NCBI GenBank assembly: GCA_902622745.1
Contig: CACNQW010000009.1
Location: forward strand, 1 to 38,810
Length of the DNA: 38,810 bases
Direction: 5' to 3'
Origin: an uncultured SAR116 cluster alpha proteobacterium
GTDB lineage: Bacteria > Pseudomonadota > Alphaproteobacteria > Puniceispirillales > Marisalimonadaceae
Positions 20,011 through 24,524 of this stretch are shown here, piece after piece. A program made the position numbers and the translations under genes. Below the pieces are notes generated by a model. It was not told where the DNA came from. It saw only the letters and a program-made list of their open reading frames with translations, and did no database searches. Every line of letters starts with the position of its first letter. The stretch's first letter is position 1.

Positions 20011-20915
20011 TGAAACTATATCCAAAATTGAAGTCTGAGTTTATAAATGTTCCCGATAGAGGTTTTGGCAAGTCAAAAATTTATACAAGCCATGGTGGGA
20101 ATGGTCCACCTTTATTACTAATTCATGGTAACCCAATGTGTCAACTAACATGGCACAAAATTTTACCAGCTCTTATAAAAAATTTTTATGTTGTAGCTGT
20201 GGATATTCGTGGTTATGGCGATAGTGAAGGTCCAAAAGCAGGAGGGGAAAACCATATTAATTATTCTTTTAGAGCTATGGGTGATGACTTTAAATTTATT
20301 ATGGAAAAACTAGGGTTCGATAAATTCTACGTGGCTGGTCATGATAGAGGCGCCCGGGTGACTCATAGATTATGTTTAGATTATAAAAATAATATCATTA
20401 AAGCTGCAGTCATTGACATATTGCCAAATCGACATTTATGGAGAAATGTAAATAAAGATTGGTCAATGGCTTATTGGCACTGGGTTTTTATGTTGCAACC
20501 TTATGATTTTCCTGAAAAGTTAATGAGCAGTGTTTCACCCTCCTACTTTATGAAAAAAAAATTATCAAAGCCTGGGGTTGGATTAGATTTTTGTAAAAAA
20601 ACATTTAAGGAATATGTGAGATGTTTTAACTGGAAAACTATATGTGCTTCATGTGAGGATTATAGAGCTTCACCAACTTGCGATTTAGATATGGAGAATA
20701 AGGATTTTCAAAATAATAACCACGTTGATTGTCCTTTGCTAGTTTTGTGGGGTAAGAAAAGCCATACAGAAGTTTCTGATGGTAATGTTTTAGAAACTTG
20801 GAGAAAATATTGTACTAATAAAGTTGTTGGAAGTAGTATAAATGGAGGTCATTACATTCAAGAAGAAAATCCAAAAGAAATTATAAAATGGTTTGAACAT
20901 TTTTTTAGGAGGTAA
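20010..20915 (+). CDS. Alpha/beta hydrolase, haloacetate/fluoroacetate dehalogenase-like
   Basis: The 301-residue hydrolase has the whole residue set known from fluoroacetate dehalogenases. The nucleophile D112 is in GHDRGARV, with carboxylate-binding R113 and R116. The second acid D136 is in VIDILP and the base H281 in GGHYIQEENP. The halide pocket residues H157 and W158 are in YWHW, and Y218 is in DYRAS. VDIRGYGDSEGP is another family stretch. Spacing fits the Rhodopseudomonas enzyme within one or two residues, from memory. It probably cleaves C-F or C-Cl in a 2-haloacid, giving glycolate; an esterase or epoxide hydrolase is less likely. It overlaps the DUF1330 gene by one base. Confidence 0.8.
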   Translation: MKLYPKLKSEFINVPDRGFGKSKIYTSHGGNGPPLLLIHGNPMCQLTWHKILPALIKNFYVVAVDIRGYGDSEGPKAGGENHINYSFRAMGDDFKFIMEKLGFDKFYVAGHDRGARVTHRLCLDYKNNIIKAAVIDILPNRHLWRNVNKDWSMAYWHWVFMLQPYDFPEKLMSSVSPSYFMKKKLSKPGVGLDFCKKTFKEYVRCFNWKTICASCEDYRASPTCDLDMENKDFQNNNHVDCPLLVLWGKKSHTEVSDGNVLETWRKYCTNKVVGSSINGGHYIQEENPKEIIKWFEHFFRR

Positions 20916-20919
20916 ATTT

Positions 20920-21498
20920 ATGAAGACACTTAAAATTTCAAAAGAAGAAATGTTAAAAAGAGTATCTGTTTTTAAGGACTTAAAGCCTTTGCCGATACAA
21001 CTTGATAAAAATATTCCTCAAGAAGGTAAAGATATTGTTTATGCAAGAGAATTACTTTCAATAATTGGCTTAGAGAATAATTCACACAATACGCCAATTA
21101 ATAAAAATGCTCCGATAACAGGAGCTGCTGGAATTACAATGACAATTGCAAAATGTCCACCTAATCAAGGGCCAGGTTTACATAATCATCAAGCTACTTT
21201 TGAAACTTTTACAGTTTTAAAAGGTAAATTTTTAATTGCTTGGAATGACGATGGGTCAGAAGAAATTATATTAAATGAATTAGACACAATTTCAATTCCT
21301 CCTGGTGTTTGCAGATCTTTTAAAAATATTTCAGATGAAGAGGGGTTGCTTCAAGTTATAATTTCTGGAGGTGTTCACGATATGAATGATATAGCTTTTA
21401 CAAAAGTTGCAAAAGATCAAATGGAAAAAATTGAATCAAATTTGTCTAAAAAATTTGAAGATGTTGGTTTTAAATTTAATGCAGGATTAAATAATTAA
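20920..21498 (+). CDS. Cupin-domain protein
   Basis: This is a small cupin of 192 residues. The first cupin motif is present as GLHNHQATFETFTVLKGKF, with two His and one Glu. The second reads IPPGVCRSFKNIS, where the usual metal-binding His is replaced by Arg, so metal binding may be altered. I chose the ATG at 20920 because AGGAGG lies at 20907-20912. An upstream TTG at 20893 would read through that site. It follows the dehalogenase-like gene by 4 bp and overlaps the convergent transporter by 4. Confidence 0.8.
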   Translation: MKTLKISKEEMLKRVSVFKDLKPLPIQLDKNIPQEGKDIVYARELLSIIGLENNSHNTPINKNAPITGAAGITMTIAKCPPNQGPGLHNHQATFETFTVLKGKFLIAWNDDGSEEIILNELDTISIPPGVCRSFKNISDEEGLLQVIISGGVHDMNDIAFTKVAKDQMEKIESNLSKKFEDVGFKFNAGLNN

Positions 21499-22376
21499 TA
21501 AGATATATTTTTTAACTTTGTAAGATAATATCCTGAAACAACTATCAGTATAGATCCTAGAATTGTTGAGTTTTCTGGAACTTCATTATAAATTACATAT
21601 CCCCAAAATGCAGCTAGTATAAGGGTTATATTTACAAATGGTGAAGCAACTGAGGCATTTATATATGTCAATGATTTAATAAAGAAAAAATGTCCTAAAG
21701 TAACTAAGACTCCCATAAGTATCATTAAACAAAGATCAAAAAAAGAAGGGATTTCAAAAAAATAAATCCCAAAAGGGATTGCTAAAAAAGATCCTGAAAT
21801 TGCTGTATAAATTAAAGTAGTGGATGACTTATCATTTTTATTTAAGTATTTTGTTGAAATTGTAAATAATGCAAAAAATAATGCTGCTAAAAAAGGAAAA
21901 ATTATATATAGATTAAAAATTTTAGAACCAGGATTTGCAATAACTATAGCTCCAACTAAACCTATAATAATCAGAAATATTTGTTTGTTTGAAACTTTTT
22001 CTTTTAAAAAAATAATTGCTAGGATCATAGTCAATATTGGTCCTATCATATAAATTGCTATGTGATCTGCAAAAGGAAGAGTTGCTAATCCAGCAAACAT
22101 ACAACATGTTGTTAGCATTAAAAGAGCACCTCTGCCTAGTTGTAATTTAGGCATGTCTGATTTTAATAATTTACTAAAATCTTTATTAAATAATAATATT
22201 AAAAAAATTAACTGTGATACATATCTTGTGAATACAATAAAAAGAGGATCATAACGTTGACCTAAGTCTTTAGCTATAAGTTCCATAATTGAAAAAATGA
22301 AGTATGTAGCTATTATCAAAAAGAAACCTTTTGATTTATTTGATGAAACTTCAAACAATTTGATAATAGAATTCAT
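21495..22376 (-). CDS. EamA/DMT-family transporter
   Basis: The 293-residue protein has about ten hydrophobic segments and two EamA repeats: ELIAKDLGQRYDPLFIVFTR then TCCMFAGLATLPFADHIAIYMIGP, and later a second half with LGHFFFIKSLTYINASVASP. It resembles the RhaT/SAM-carrier-like group of permeases; the substrate is unknown. It lies downstream of the DUF1127 gene and its terminator, so it is probably transcribed on its own. Confidence 0.85.
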   Translation of the reverse strand: MNSIIKLFEVSSNKSKGFFLIIATYFIFSIMELIAKDLGQRYDPLFIVFTRYVSQLIFLILLFNKDFSKLLKSDMPKLQLGRGALLMLTTCCMFAGLATLPFADHIAIYMIGPILTMILAIIFLKEKVSNKQIFLIIIGLVGAIVIANPGSKIFNLYIIFPFLAALFFALFTISTKYLNKNDKSSTTLIYTAISGSFLAIPFGIYFFEIPSFFDLCLMILMGVLVTLGHFFFIKSLTYINASVASPFVNITLILAAFWGYVIYNEVPENSTILGSILIVVSGYYLTKLKNISY

Positions 22377-22404: not shown

Positions 22405-22490
22405 ATGCAATAAAAAAGGGTGAAGTTAATCACCCTTTTTATATTTAATCTAGATAAGAAGAGGAGGAGGAATATATATCTAGAAAAAAA
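22405..22490 (-). ncRNA. Candidate anti-Shine-Dalgarno sRNA, cuckoo/CcsR-like
   Basis: Read on the minus strand just after the DUF1127 stop, TCTAGATA and TATCTAGA (22484-22477 and 22456-22449) form an 8-bp stem around a 20-base loop. The loop contains CCTCCTCCTC (22470-22461). About 8 bases later a strong terminator hairpin begins. In Rhodobacter and relatives, sRNAs with CCUCCUCCC loops lie directly downstream of DUF1127 genes and are cut from the shared message. Gene order, loop motif and terminator all agree here. Ends are approximate, and only one loop with the motif is seen. Confidence 0.6.
22413..22440 (-). terminator. Rho-independent terminator
   Basis: An 11-bp perfect stem (22413-22423 with 22430-22440) encloses a 6-base loop. 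The GGGTGA/TCACCC core is flanked by A and T runs, so on the minus strand it ends in a U-tract. It would end transcription of the DUF1127 gene and the sRNA candidate and insulate the transporter gene. The A-rich side also lets it work in the other direction. Confidence 0.85.
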
Positions 22491-22498
22491 TTTTGTAT

Positions 22499-22723
22499 TT
22501 AAGCAGCTTTAGCTTTTGTAGATTTAATTCTACTTATCTTCTTAGTTGGAAAATTTGCAACTTCTTTGTAATTGTAAAAATCACCTGTATCTAAAGAAGT
22601 TCTAGTTATTCCCATTGCTTCAAGCTCATTGTCTGATAAGAATGCCAAGGCTTGTCTTGTTCTATTAATCGCAATTTTTTCGAAAATAGAAGTTATAGTA
22701 TTTATAAATTTATTGTTAGACAT
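22499..22723 (-). CDS. DUF1127 (YjiS-like) small protein
   Basis: The 74-residue basic protein has the DUF1127 core NRTRQALAFLSDNELEAMGI followed by TRTSL, typical of Alphaproteobacteria and often an RNA-binding helix pair. In Rhodobacter sphaeroides the DUF1127 protein CcaF1 binds RNA and helps mature sRNAs encoded downstream. The 3' end here also carries such an sRNA candidate. The tail KKISRIKSTKAKAA is lysine-rich. AAAGGAAC precedes the ATG. Low-complexity AT-rich DNA lies upstream. Confidence 0.88.
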   Translation of the reverse strand: MSNNKFINTITSIFEKIAINRTRQALAFLSDNELEAMGITRTSLDTGDFYNYKEVANFPTKKISRIKSTKAKAA

Positions 22724-22786
22724 TATTTGTTCCTTTTGAATATATTAAAGATATAATTGTTTCTTATTTAAAAGAGAATACACAAT

Positions 22787-22856
22787 AATAGAAAATAATT
22801 ATTTCTATTTTGGAAATTATTTATAAATATTAAATATATTATTTCTAATATAGAAA
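22787..22856. repeat. Two inverted repeats sharing TTTCTA/TAGAAA in the divergent control region
   Basis: AATAGAAA-7-TTTCTATT (22787-22809) and TTTCTA-3-TAGAAA (22842-22856) lie in the 249-bp gap between the DUF1127 gene and the ExbB-like gene. They share the TTTCTA half-site and could be regulator sites. The rest of the gap is AT-rich, with one possible promoter and nothing else I can name. Confidence 0.35.
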
Positions 22857-22914: not shown

Positions 22915-22972
22915 AAGCTTGTTTAATTCGACAATTAGATGTTGTAATCACTACGAACATAAGGAGAATTTA

Positions 22973-23434
22973 ATGAAAATAACAAAACCATTTTTATTGT
23001 GGTGGATACAAGTTGTTACCATTTCTTTTGCATCCTTTTTTATATATACTTTTAACTGGTTTGAAGCACTTTATGATGCAGATCAAACAAAAATAAGTTT
23101 TTTAATAATAATTGTATTTATCGGAGCTACTTTAACTGTAGGTGTTTTAAGCTACAAAAACCTATCTAATAGAAATGTTCTATCTAATTATGTTTGGTTT
23201 TCTTCTGAAACCATGGTTACTTTAGGTTTGATTGGAACAGTTGCTGGTTTTCTTTTAATGTTAAGCTCAGCTTTTGATAATCTTGATGTTAAAAATGTTG
23301 AGAATGTTCAAGAAGTTATTACAGATATGTCTTTAGGAATGAGTACAGCTTTGTGTACTACTCTTGTTGGTCTTGTATCAAGTGTATTAACAAAAATACA
23401 AATGGTAATCTTAGAGAATAACAACCATGAATGA
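22973..23434 (+). CDS. Small MotA/TolQ/ExbB-family proton channel protein
   Basis: The 153-residue protein has four hydrophobic segments (about 7-27, 40-60, 80-99, 121-141). The last two hold the family core: LGLIGTVAGF with T89, and MSTALCTTLVGLVSSV with T130. These line up with the proton-path threonines of ExbB (T148, T181 in E. coli); the ExbB Glu176 position is Thr125, as in MotA-like members. At 153 residues it is much shorter than ExbB or MotA and lacks a big cytoplasmic domain. I chose the ATG at 22973 because AAGGAG precedes it. It overlaps the next gene by 8 bases. It is probably the stator ring of a proton-driven complex. Confidence 0.75.
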   Translation: MKITKPFLLWWIQVVTISFASFFIYTFNWFEALYDADQTKISFLIIIVFIGATLTVGVLSYKNLSNRNVLSNYVWFSSETMVTLGLIGTVAGFLLMLSSAFDNLDVKNVENVQEVITDMSLGMSTALCTTLVGLVSSVLTKIQMVILENNNHE

Positions 23435-24044
23435 CCCAAGATATAGATCATCTTTTGGATTTATAGATTTATTATTTAATCTTCTTATAGGATTTGTTTT
23501 TTTGTTCATGTTGGCTTTCATGTTAATAAATCCAGTAGCAAAAAAAGAAACAATTAAACCTAAAGCAGAATACTTTATAATATTAGAATGGGATGGTGAG
23601 AAACCTTATGATTTAGATTTGTGGGTAAAAGACAATTTAGGACATGTTGTTAGTTTTAGACGACCAGATGATGCTTTAATTCATCTAGAGAGAGATGATT
23701 TGGGTACGATTAATGACACTTATTATGATGCTGATGGTAAATTAGTTTATTTAAAAGAAAATAGAGAAACTGTTGCTATTAGGACTAATGATCCTAGATC
23801 TTACCTTGTTACAGTTCACTTTTACAATGCTAGAAAAAACCCTGCACCCTTAATTCATGCATCTGTTAAGCTTATAAAAATTAACCCTTATAGAGAAGAG
23901 TTCCACAAAAAACTTTTTTTCAGTCAAGAGGGACAAGAATTGCCTGCAATGACATTTAGAATAGATTATAATCAAAGTGTTCATGTTAAACCAACTGAAG
24001 AATTGATAATTAAAGATGAAATTATTAGGAAAGAGGGTGCCTAA
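23427..24044 (+). CDS. ExbD/MotB-like stator protein with a beta-rich periplasmic domain
   Basis: Of 205 residues, 11-35 are one membrane segment, GFIDLLFNLLIGFVFLFML, with D14 in the place of the proton-carrying Asp of ExbD (FID motif). The rest should be periplasmic. Residues about 45-140 look like a beta sandwich: FIILEWDGEKPYDLDLWV, GHVVSFRRPDD, HLERDDLG and YLVTVHFYNARKNP. The DLDLWV and RDDLG pattern recalls DUF2135/YfaP-type domains; that is a by-eye resemblance. No OmpA-like peptidoglycan domain is present, which argues against MotB. It is coupled to the channel gene by overlap. Confidence 0.7.
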   Translation: MNDPRYRSSFGFIDLLFNLLIGFVFLFMLAFMLINPVAKKETIKPKAEYFIILEWDGEKPYDLDLWVKDNLGHVVSFRRPDDALIHLERDDLGTINDTYYDADGKLVYLKENRETVAIRTNDPRSYLVTVHFYNARKNPAPLIHASVKLIKINPYREEFHKKLFFSQEGQELPAMTFRIDYNQSVHVKPTEELIIKDEIIRKEGA

Positions 24045-24524
24045 TTGTTAGATTTTTCAATTAGTGGCGGGCAGTTAATGTTAATATGGGCATTTGCTGG
24101 AGCTATTTGTTGTCTTCCTTTTTTTATTAAAAAAAGATGGCAATATTTTGTAACTGTTCCAATTATATTTTTATCAATATATATAAGTTTCATAACAAAT
24201 TATGAATTTATTGGAAAACCACTTTATGAGAGACCTCCTTCAAAATTTGTTTACCAGTATCATAGTGTAATTTACGAAAAAGGTGAAAGATGGATCATAT
24301 TATGGGCACTTCAAAATAAGGAAAATAGATTATACAAATTTCCATGGACTGAAGAAAACGAAGATAGTTTAGATCAGGCTAGAAGAAATCAAGAACAATT
24401 TGGTATTCCTCAAATGGGTGAAGTAATTCCAAAAAAAGAAGGGGACAGAGATAAGCGTTCCAGAAATAATGAGTTTACCTTAAAAACCTACAAATTTCCA
24501 TTTCAAGAAATTATGCCAAAATAA
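24045..24524 (+). CDS. Unknown membrane protein, third gene of the ExbB/ExbD-like cassette
   Basis: I do not recognise this 159-residue protein. Two hydrophobic segments (about 9-27 and 33-50) are followed by a charged tail with FVYQYHSVIYEKGERWIIL and a Pro/Lys/Arg-rich end, RDKRSRNNEFTLKTYKFPF. The start is the TTG at 24045, directly after the stop of the ExbD-like gene and with AGAGGG upstream; an ATG at 24078 is the alternative. Its position implies a structural partner of the proton channel. The stop is 2 bp from the convergent monooxygenase gene. Confidence 0.65.
   Translation: MLDFSISGGQLMLIWAFAGAICCLPFFIKKRWQYFVTVPIIFLSIYISFITNYEFIGKPLYERPPSKFVYQYHSVIYEKGERWIILWALQNKENRLYKFPWTEENEDSLDQARRNQEQFGIPQMGEVIPKKEGDRDKRSRNNEFTLKTYKFPFQEIMPK

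Follow-up and report, generated by a model that had tools for sequence, protein, structure and literature searches.

The RNAs closest to the one analysed here are the CcsR RNAs of Rhodobacter sphaeroides, whose loops carry CCUCCUCCC (as was also stated in the first-pass annotation of this DNA), and an RpoHI/RpoHII promoter is a feature of CcsR1-4. The cuckoo RNA family described by Reinkensmeier and Giegerich in 2015 is said to comprise two to four adjacent hairpins, with the motif present in each of them. The arrangement of a DUF1127 gene followed by a CcsR-like sRNA is referred to as CIN1 in PMC10253847, and CcaF1 and CcsR of this type are treated in PMC10253847 and PMC8625941. The protein CcaF1 was reported to bind RNA and to affect the maturation of its own transcript (PMC10253847, PMC8307010). 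CcsR1-4 are called Hfq-dependent in PMC7866481 and Hfq-interacting in PMC8307010.

In Sinorhizobium meliloti, NfeR1 (alpha-r14) is described as having its own promoter and three hairpins with identical CCUCCUCCC, and PMC10746234, which gives three hairpins for alpha-r14 as well, links this RNA to the cuckoo RNA paper by citation. According to the same source, NfeR1 silences mRNAs at their start region, is independent of Hfq and has an unknown chaperone; it is contrasted there with AbcR1 and AbcR2, which possess similar aSD motifs and whose targets are mostly transport and metabolic mRNAs.

The locus described below resembles ccaF1-CcsR1-4, as outlined in PMC10253847, in that a small DUF1127 gene is followed on the same strand by a hairpin RNA and a Rho-independent terminator. 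It differs in having one CCUCC hairpin, whereas four CcsR RNAs are present in R. sphaeroides. With NfeR1 (PMC10746234) it shares anti-SD loops of the CCUCC type whose stems differ in sequence; however, it has one hairpin located behind DUF1127 instead of three hairpins with a promoter of their own.

Gene, hairpin and terminator in the window

The DNA analysed is a stretch of 38,810 nt from a SAR116 cluster alphaproteobacterium (the whole of it is called the window), with a GC content of 29.5%. Its genome (G000; 1.39 Mb in 74 contigs) is 68% complete, and nine SAR116 (Puniceispirillales) assemblies were named as close relatives, with 89-99% protein identity. The minus strand of the window encodes a small protein of 74 aa at 22499-22723, with a TAA stop at 22501-22499. 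The Pfam search with this protein returned no family at E<=10, the PF06568 search of its own genome gave no match, and the NCBIfam scan of the protein family yielded nothing useful. Orthologs with 69-99% identity are present in 10 other genomes of the same genus. The assignment of the window protein to DUF1127 is indirect and is supported by homology to relatives, because 10 of the 12 members of the family alignment (A2) match PF06568 (best value 2.1e-07). Among 101 genomes, a search with the window protein detected it in 34 and a search with the family alignment in 47; the 13 genomes gained with the alignment belong to other families of the order and gave short matches. Downstream on the same strand, an EamA-type transporter gene starts at 22376. 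Beside the DUF1127 gene on its other side, the divergent plus-strand region 22919-24524 encodes a MotA/ExbB-type protein (PF01618) and also has two ORFs for which Pfam gave no match.

The stop codon is followed by a gap of 14 nt and then, from the 15th base onwards, by a predicted hairpin on the minus strand (22449-22484), in which the arms TCTAGATA (22484-22477) and TATCTAGA (22456-22449) form a stem of 8 bp around a 20-nt loop, TATATTCCTCCTCCTCTTCT. This loop contains CCTCCTCCTC at 22470-22461, that is, the anti-Shine-Dalgarno-like motif CCUCCUCCUC. Eight bases past the hairpin there is a second predicted stem of 11 bp (22413-22440, minus strand; arms 22440-22430 and 22423-22413), with the loop TTAACT, an A run before it and a T run after it, which resembles an intrinsic terminator. 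Both elements had been read in this way in the first-pass annotation, including the stem lengths and the distance of the hairpin from the stop codon, and both readings were confirmed. In the consensus terminator scan the 11-bp stem was listed as terminator-like for the plus strand alone, because the stem itself takes up most of the T run when read on the minus strand. From the positions of the stop codon and the terminator, we infer a 3'-UTR-derived RNA of about 90 nt (22408-22498, minus strand). The 98-nt stretch with these elements folded with -22.8 kcal/mol (z -6.2), and none of 200 shuffles was as good. Taken by themselves, the CCTCC hairpin had -7.0 kcal/mol (z -2.5, with 2/200 shuffles as good) and the terminator -14.4 kcal/mol (z -4.5).

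Among the 45 CCTCC sites on both strands of the window, this is the only one within the loop of a stem of at least 8 bp. In 438.8 kb of the genome (the window and 20 further stretches), 5 of 341 CCTCC sites were located in loops of perfect stems of at least 8 bp, two of the five being the window hairpin itself; for other C-rich 5-mers the corresponding counts were 3/148 (CTCCC), 2/147 (CCCCT), 1/148 (TCCCC) and 0/221 (CCCTC). As CCTCC is found in such loops about as often as other C-rich words, chance can be excluded only by comparison with relatives; a single CCTCC hairpin in AT-rich DNA has no significance alone, and the weight rests on its conservation. The window's own genome has 22 CCTCCTCC sites, and of the 18 that were folded only the window site lay wholly inside the loop of an 8-bp stem; at the L055 site the stem around the loop is weak and has 4 bp. 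Counts of CCTCCTCC in 20 DUF1127-less genomes were uninformative, the motif being common and the backwards control being the same word. No family reached the gathering score in the Rfam scan of the window, and the sub-threshold matches (sraA, mir-628 and others) were taken as chance.

Upstream of the gene, an alignment of 11 loci (A4) contains a conserved block, TTTCCAAAATAGAAATAATTATTTTCTATTATTGTGTATTCTCTTTT, with the dyad AGAAATAATTATTTTCT (22770-22816, minus strand), which is a candidate promoter or operator of the DUF1127 transcript. The number of sigma-70-like matches in the upstream region (8) was close to that in shuffled sequences (mean 5.4, sd 2.2). Resembling sequences are also present upstream in other genera (GGAAACAATTATTTTCC in L012 and GGAAATAATTATATTCC in L017). 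In loci of genus g2 (such as L014, L018 and L025), we also noticed a GAAGG...CCTTC hairpin-like leader ahead of the DUF1127 start codon; CGAAGGA occurs both in this leader and in the terminator of the respective locus.

Loop and stems in related genomes

We compared the DNA after the stop codon at all 36 DUF1127 loci found in the family of the window (f1; 34 genomes) and predicted the fold of the 150 nt that follow each stop. The first-pass annotation had named conservation of the loop and the stem in relatives as a check of its reading, and the core of that reading passes it. CCUCC was located in a hairpin loop at 36/36 loci, with an onset 9-18 nt past the DUF1127 stop, and the stems varied: 15 distinct pairings were counted, many of them close variants of one another. 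The exact CCUCCUCCC is present in 17 of the 36 loci, including one of the window's genus (L011), whereas the window has CCUCCUCCUC. Two copies of the DUF1127-RNA unit were observed in each of two genomes, G024 (L014, L105) and G027 (L081, L106).

Genera g1 (the window's own) and g4 have a single hairpin, and the 23 loci of genera g2 and g3 have a second CCUCC, 70-150 nt past the stop. In the predicted folds this second CCUCC is mostly partly paired: at 20 of these 23 loci only two of its five bases are free. The second hairpin (columns 59-112 of alignment A3) is well conserved and CCUCCCC(C)AAGG-like, with a small inner CCU/AGG stem, and it is possibly a switchable anti-SD.

Stem covariation is thin. 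The alignment of the two-hairpin loci (23, aligned by sequence) was paired in 99.1% of its cells, and 10 cells had double changes, in comparison to a shuffle mean of 3.1 (0/500 shuffles as high, slid controls at most 4); eight of these 10 cells belong to one pair and may represent one event. The three double-change pairs were reached by 13 of 500 shuffles, and in the number of further pair types this alignment did not exceed shuffles (174/500). In the single-hairpin alignment, double changes were found in 5 of 22 pairs. For 10 loci of the same genus, mean pairwise identity was 97% in the CCTCC loop and 100% in the stem; the terminator stem was invariant and its loop had 59% identity. The values for four-fold codon sites (90%, 20 sites), the spacer (91%) and the DNA beyond the terminator (92-94%) were lower than that of the CCTCC loop, which we judge to be constrained, the region past the terminator being just slightly less conserved.

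The window shares with CIN1 a DUF1127 gene (by family homology) directly upstream on the same strand and a downstream CCUCC-loop hairpin followed by a terminator, and it shares with cuckoo RNAs the variable stems around a conserved loop (15 pairings at 36 loci). On the other hand, it has one hairpin and no repeat, and its loop carries CCUCCUCCUC in place of the exact CCUCCUCCC of the CcsR loops. Since the hairpin repeat and the exact motif of the canonical cuckoo RNA are lacking, and no hfq was found that would allow the Hfq-dependence of CcsR (see below), we describe the window RNA as a single-hairpin variant that is apparently Hfq-free; it stands outside the strict cuckoo family and is like cuckoo RNA in design. 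Thus, the earlier label of a cuckoo/CcsR-type sRNA holds for the CIN1 anatomy and the conserved CCUCC loop, but not for the hairpin repeat or for the exact CCUCCUCCC in the window.

Outside the family, six of the eight DUF1127 loci of family f4 have CCTCC as part of a predicted hairpin no more than 90 nt past the stop; it is fully unpaired in three of them and has 2/5 bases unpaired in the other three. None of the five DUF1127 loci of family f2 had a CCTCC hairpin within this distance, and therefore DUF1127 alone is no guarantee of the hairpin. In a non-random class sample of 30 high-scoring DUF1127 loci, of which 28 were parsed, CCTCC was in a loop at seven loci and in arrays of at least four at four loci (six in L146 and four each in L139-L141, which belong to one genus). 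These arrays after DUF1127 resemble the CcsR array of R. sphaeroides.

The hfq locus in the family

Across 136 genomes of the order, Hfq (PF17209) was detected above the cut-off in 66, all of which belong to family f2, f3 or f4. Family f1 gave just two sub-cut-off matches, one of them with an internal stop. A check of 17 f1 genomes, including the window's own and three that are at least 90% complete, found no Hfq, and its E. coli and Caulobacter controls were positive.

The gene order is trkA-dat-hfq in f4 and trkA-hfq in f2. With trkA as the query, 18 of 22 genomes gave a match, 16 of them among the 20 from f1. No trkA match was obtained in the window's own genome, and the evidence on the trkA-dat junction comes from other f1 genomes. 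We compared the f1 junction loci (L207-L216 and L218-L222) with L204, L205 and L206, a sixteenth f1 locus ending too early. In 15/15 covered f1 loci hfq was absent, and a GTPase-like gene began 2-23 nt past trkA-dat. A single Hfq match came up at the f1 junctions, within dat of L219, and its E value of 0.42 is no better than chance. The two junction GTPase genes that were checked had matches to the GTP-bdg_N and GTP-bdg_M domains, and from these domains the junction gene can be read as hflX-type (HflX). Judging by this gene order, hfq appears to have been lost cleanly from family f1, at the point where dat meets the hflX-type gene. Among the papers searched, none joined Hfq with SAR116, and for Hfq and Puniceispirillum there was nothing that was relevant by title; the absence of hfq in family f1 is a new observation. 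CcsR1-4 are described as dependent on Hfq, whereas no hfq was found in the lineage of the window, and for this reason a dependence on Hfq as in the Rhodobacter CcsR RNAs is unlikely.

Proposed anti-Shine-Dalgarno action and its alternatives

We favour, with a probability of roughly 0.6, the reading in which the 3' UTR of the DUF1127 mRNA carries a single-hairpin anti-SD regulatory RNA, similar to CcsR and NfeR1 and acting without Hfq. The DUF1127 gene and the RNA would be co-transcribed up to the terminator, and processing past the stop codon, possibly by RNase E as in Rhodobacter, would release an RNA of about 90 nt composed of one CCUCC-loop hairpin and the terminator. With its short stem keeping it open, the loop would pair with strong AGGAGG-like Shine-Dalgarno sequences and keep ribosomes from binding to a subset of mRNAs, in the mode of CcsR and NfeR1 and as a minimal single-hairpin variant of them. 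Because family f1 shows no hfq, the pairing would be chaperone-free or aided by another protein, most obviously the DUF1127 protein encoded on the same mRNA.

The anti-SD sequence CACCTCCTT is intact in the 16S tail, and a minority of genes have SD motifs: GGAG was present in 52 of 396 start regions versus 8 in the control window, and AGGAGG in 4 versus 1. Loop duplexes of -12 kcal/mol or lower were predicted for 22 of the 396 start regions, in comparison to 21, 23, 16, 9 and 15 for five shuffled loops, and for 33 coding interiors, which is above the 22 of the start regions. The predicted targets are not enriched above chance. The AGGAGG at 20907, which had been suggested as a binding site, is indeed present 7 nt ahead of the ATG at 20920; as a target it fared poorly, ranking 42 among 396 by duplex energy, with -9.8 versus the stronger -11.6 of the ribosome itself. 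The count of the AGGAGG-before-ATG pattern (59 versus 57 for the backwards control) was uninformative. The start regions of lowest energy, named by eye, belong to adenylate kinase-like, ribosomal protein S3-like, SMR-like transporter, proteorhodopsin-like and TRAP/TTT transporter genes and are leads only. An ORF at 16371 of L185, proteorhodopsin-like by eye, has a GGGGAGGA ribosome site and the fourth best loop duplex among the 396. With no target enrichment, the case for the proposed anti-SD action is built on the loop, its conservation and the experiments with relatives.

The lack of enrichment for trans targets is also what would be expected if the hairpin were a cis-acting 3'-UTR element, which protects or marks the DUF1127 mRNA or serves as an autoregulation site of the DUF1127 protein. 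This reading is possible, if unlikely, and it has a precedent in the reported effect of the RNA-binding CcaF1 on the maturation of its own transcript (PMC10253847, PMC8307010). It is favoured as well by the linkage of the gene and the RNA, which also counts for the anti-SD reading above. We used the two-hairpin RNA of genus g2, whose positive control was matched, to search 17 f1 genomes without a detected DUF1127 (G006, G012 and G018 were left out), and in 16 of them, which thus miss the gene and the RNA together, there was no substantial match to this query, which a diverged RNA of another genus (G017, g3) could escape. The remaining genome, G019, had a 63-nt match at two contig ends. The DUF1127 locus itself is patchy: it was not found in the near-complete f1 genomes G013 (99%), G016 (93%) and G021 (90%), and is therefore not essential. 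However, a merely protective hairpin needs no CCUCC loop that is kept while the stems change, and an RNA with a related loop is described as acting in trans (PMC10746234).

We consider it improbable that the C-rich loop serves to bind another protein (Rho or a cold-shock protein, for example) instead of acting as an anti-SD. C-rich codons do control another DUF1127 gene, with an action of Rho proposed in PMC12218461, but the element presented there is a leader upstream of the gene and not a 3'-UTR hairpin; moreover, the core common to the loci studied here is specifically CCUCC, followed by a terminator-like stem. An ordinary double terminator or a chance hairpin in AT-rich DNA is disfavoured to the point of being hardly credible. 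Such hairpins are not rare by themselves (the 5/341 CCTCC sites given above), but the CCUCC loop persists at all 36 loci over 15 stem pairings and the stems include double changes.

The regulatory RNA that we favour could be a part of a self-sufficient unit that took shape after the loss of hfq, in which one mRNA would give both an anti-SD RNA and its own chaperone or processing partner, DUF1127. This extension is rather doubtful; if true, the unit would be very small in the genus of the window, consisting of one hairpin and one 74-aa protein. Very short intergenic spacers are reported for such genomes in PMC8547437, whose low-GC subclade probably corresponds to the family of the window, as suggested by the 29.5% GC and by the single-cell isolate names of its relatives, and the structured 3' region has been kept despite them. 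A family in which hfq was apparently deleted cleanly, and in which many members kept the DUF1127-RNA pair, represents a natural experiment. If the RNA works in the f1 lineage, Hfq would be dispensable for it, and DUF1127 would be the first protein to test in its place.
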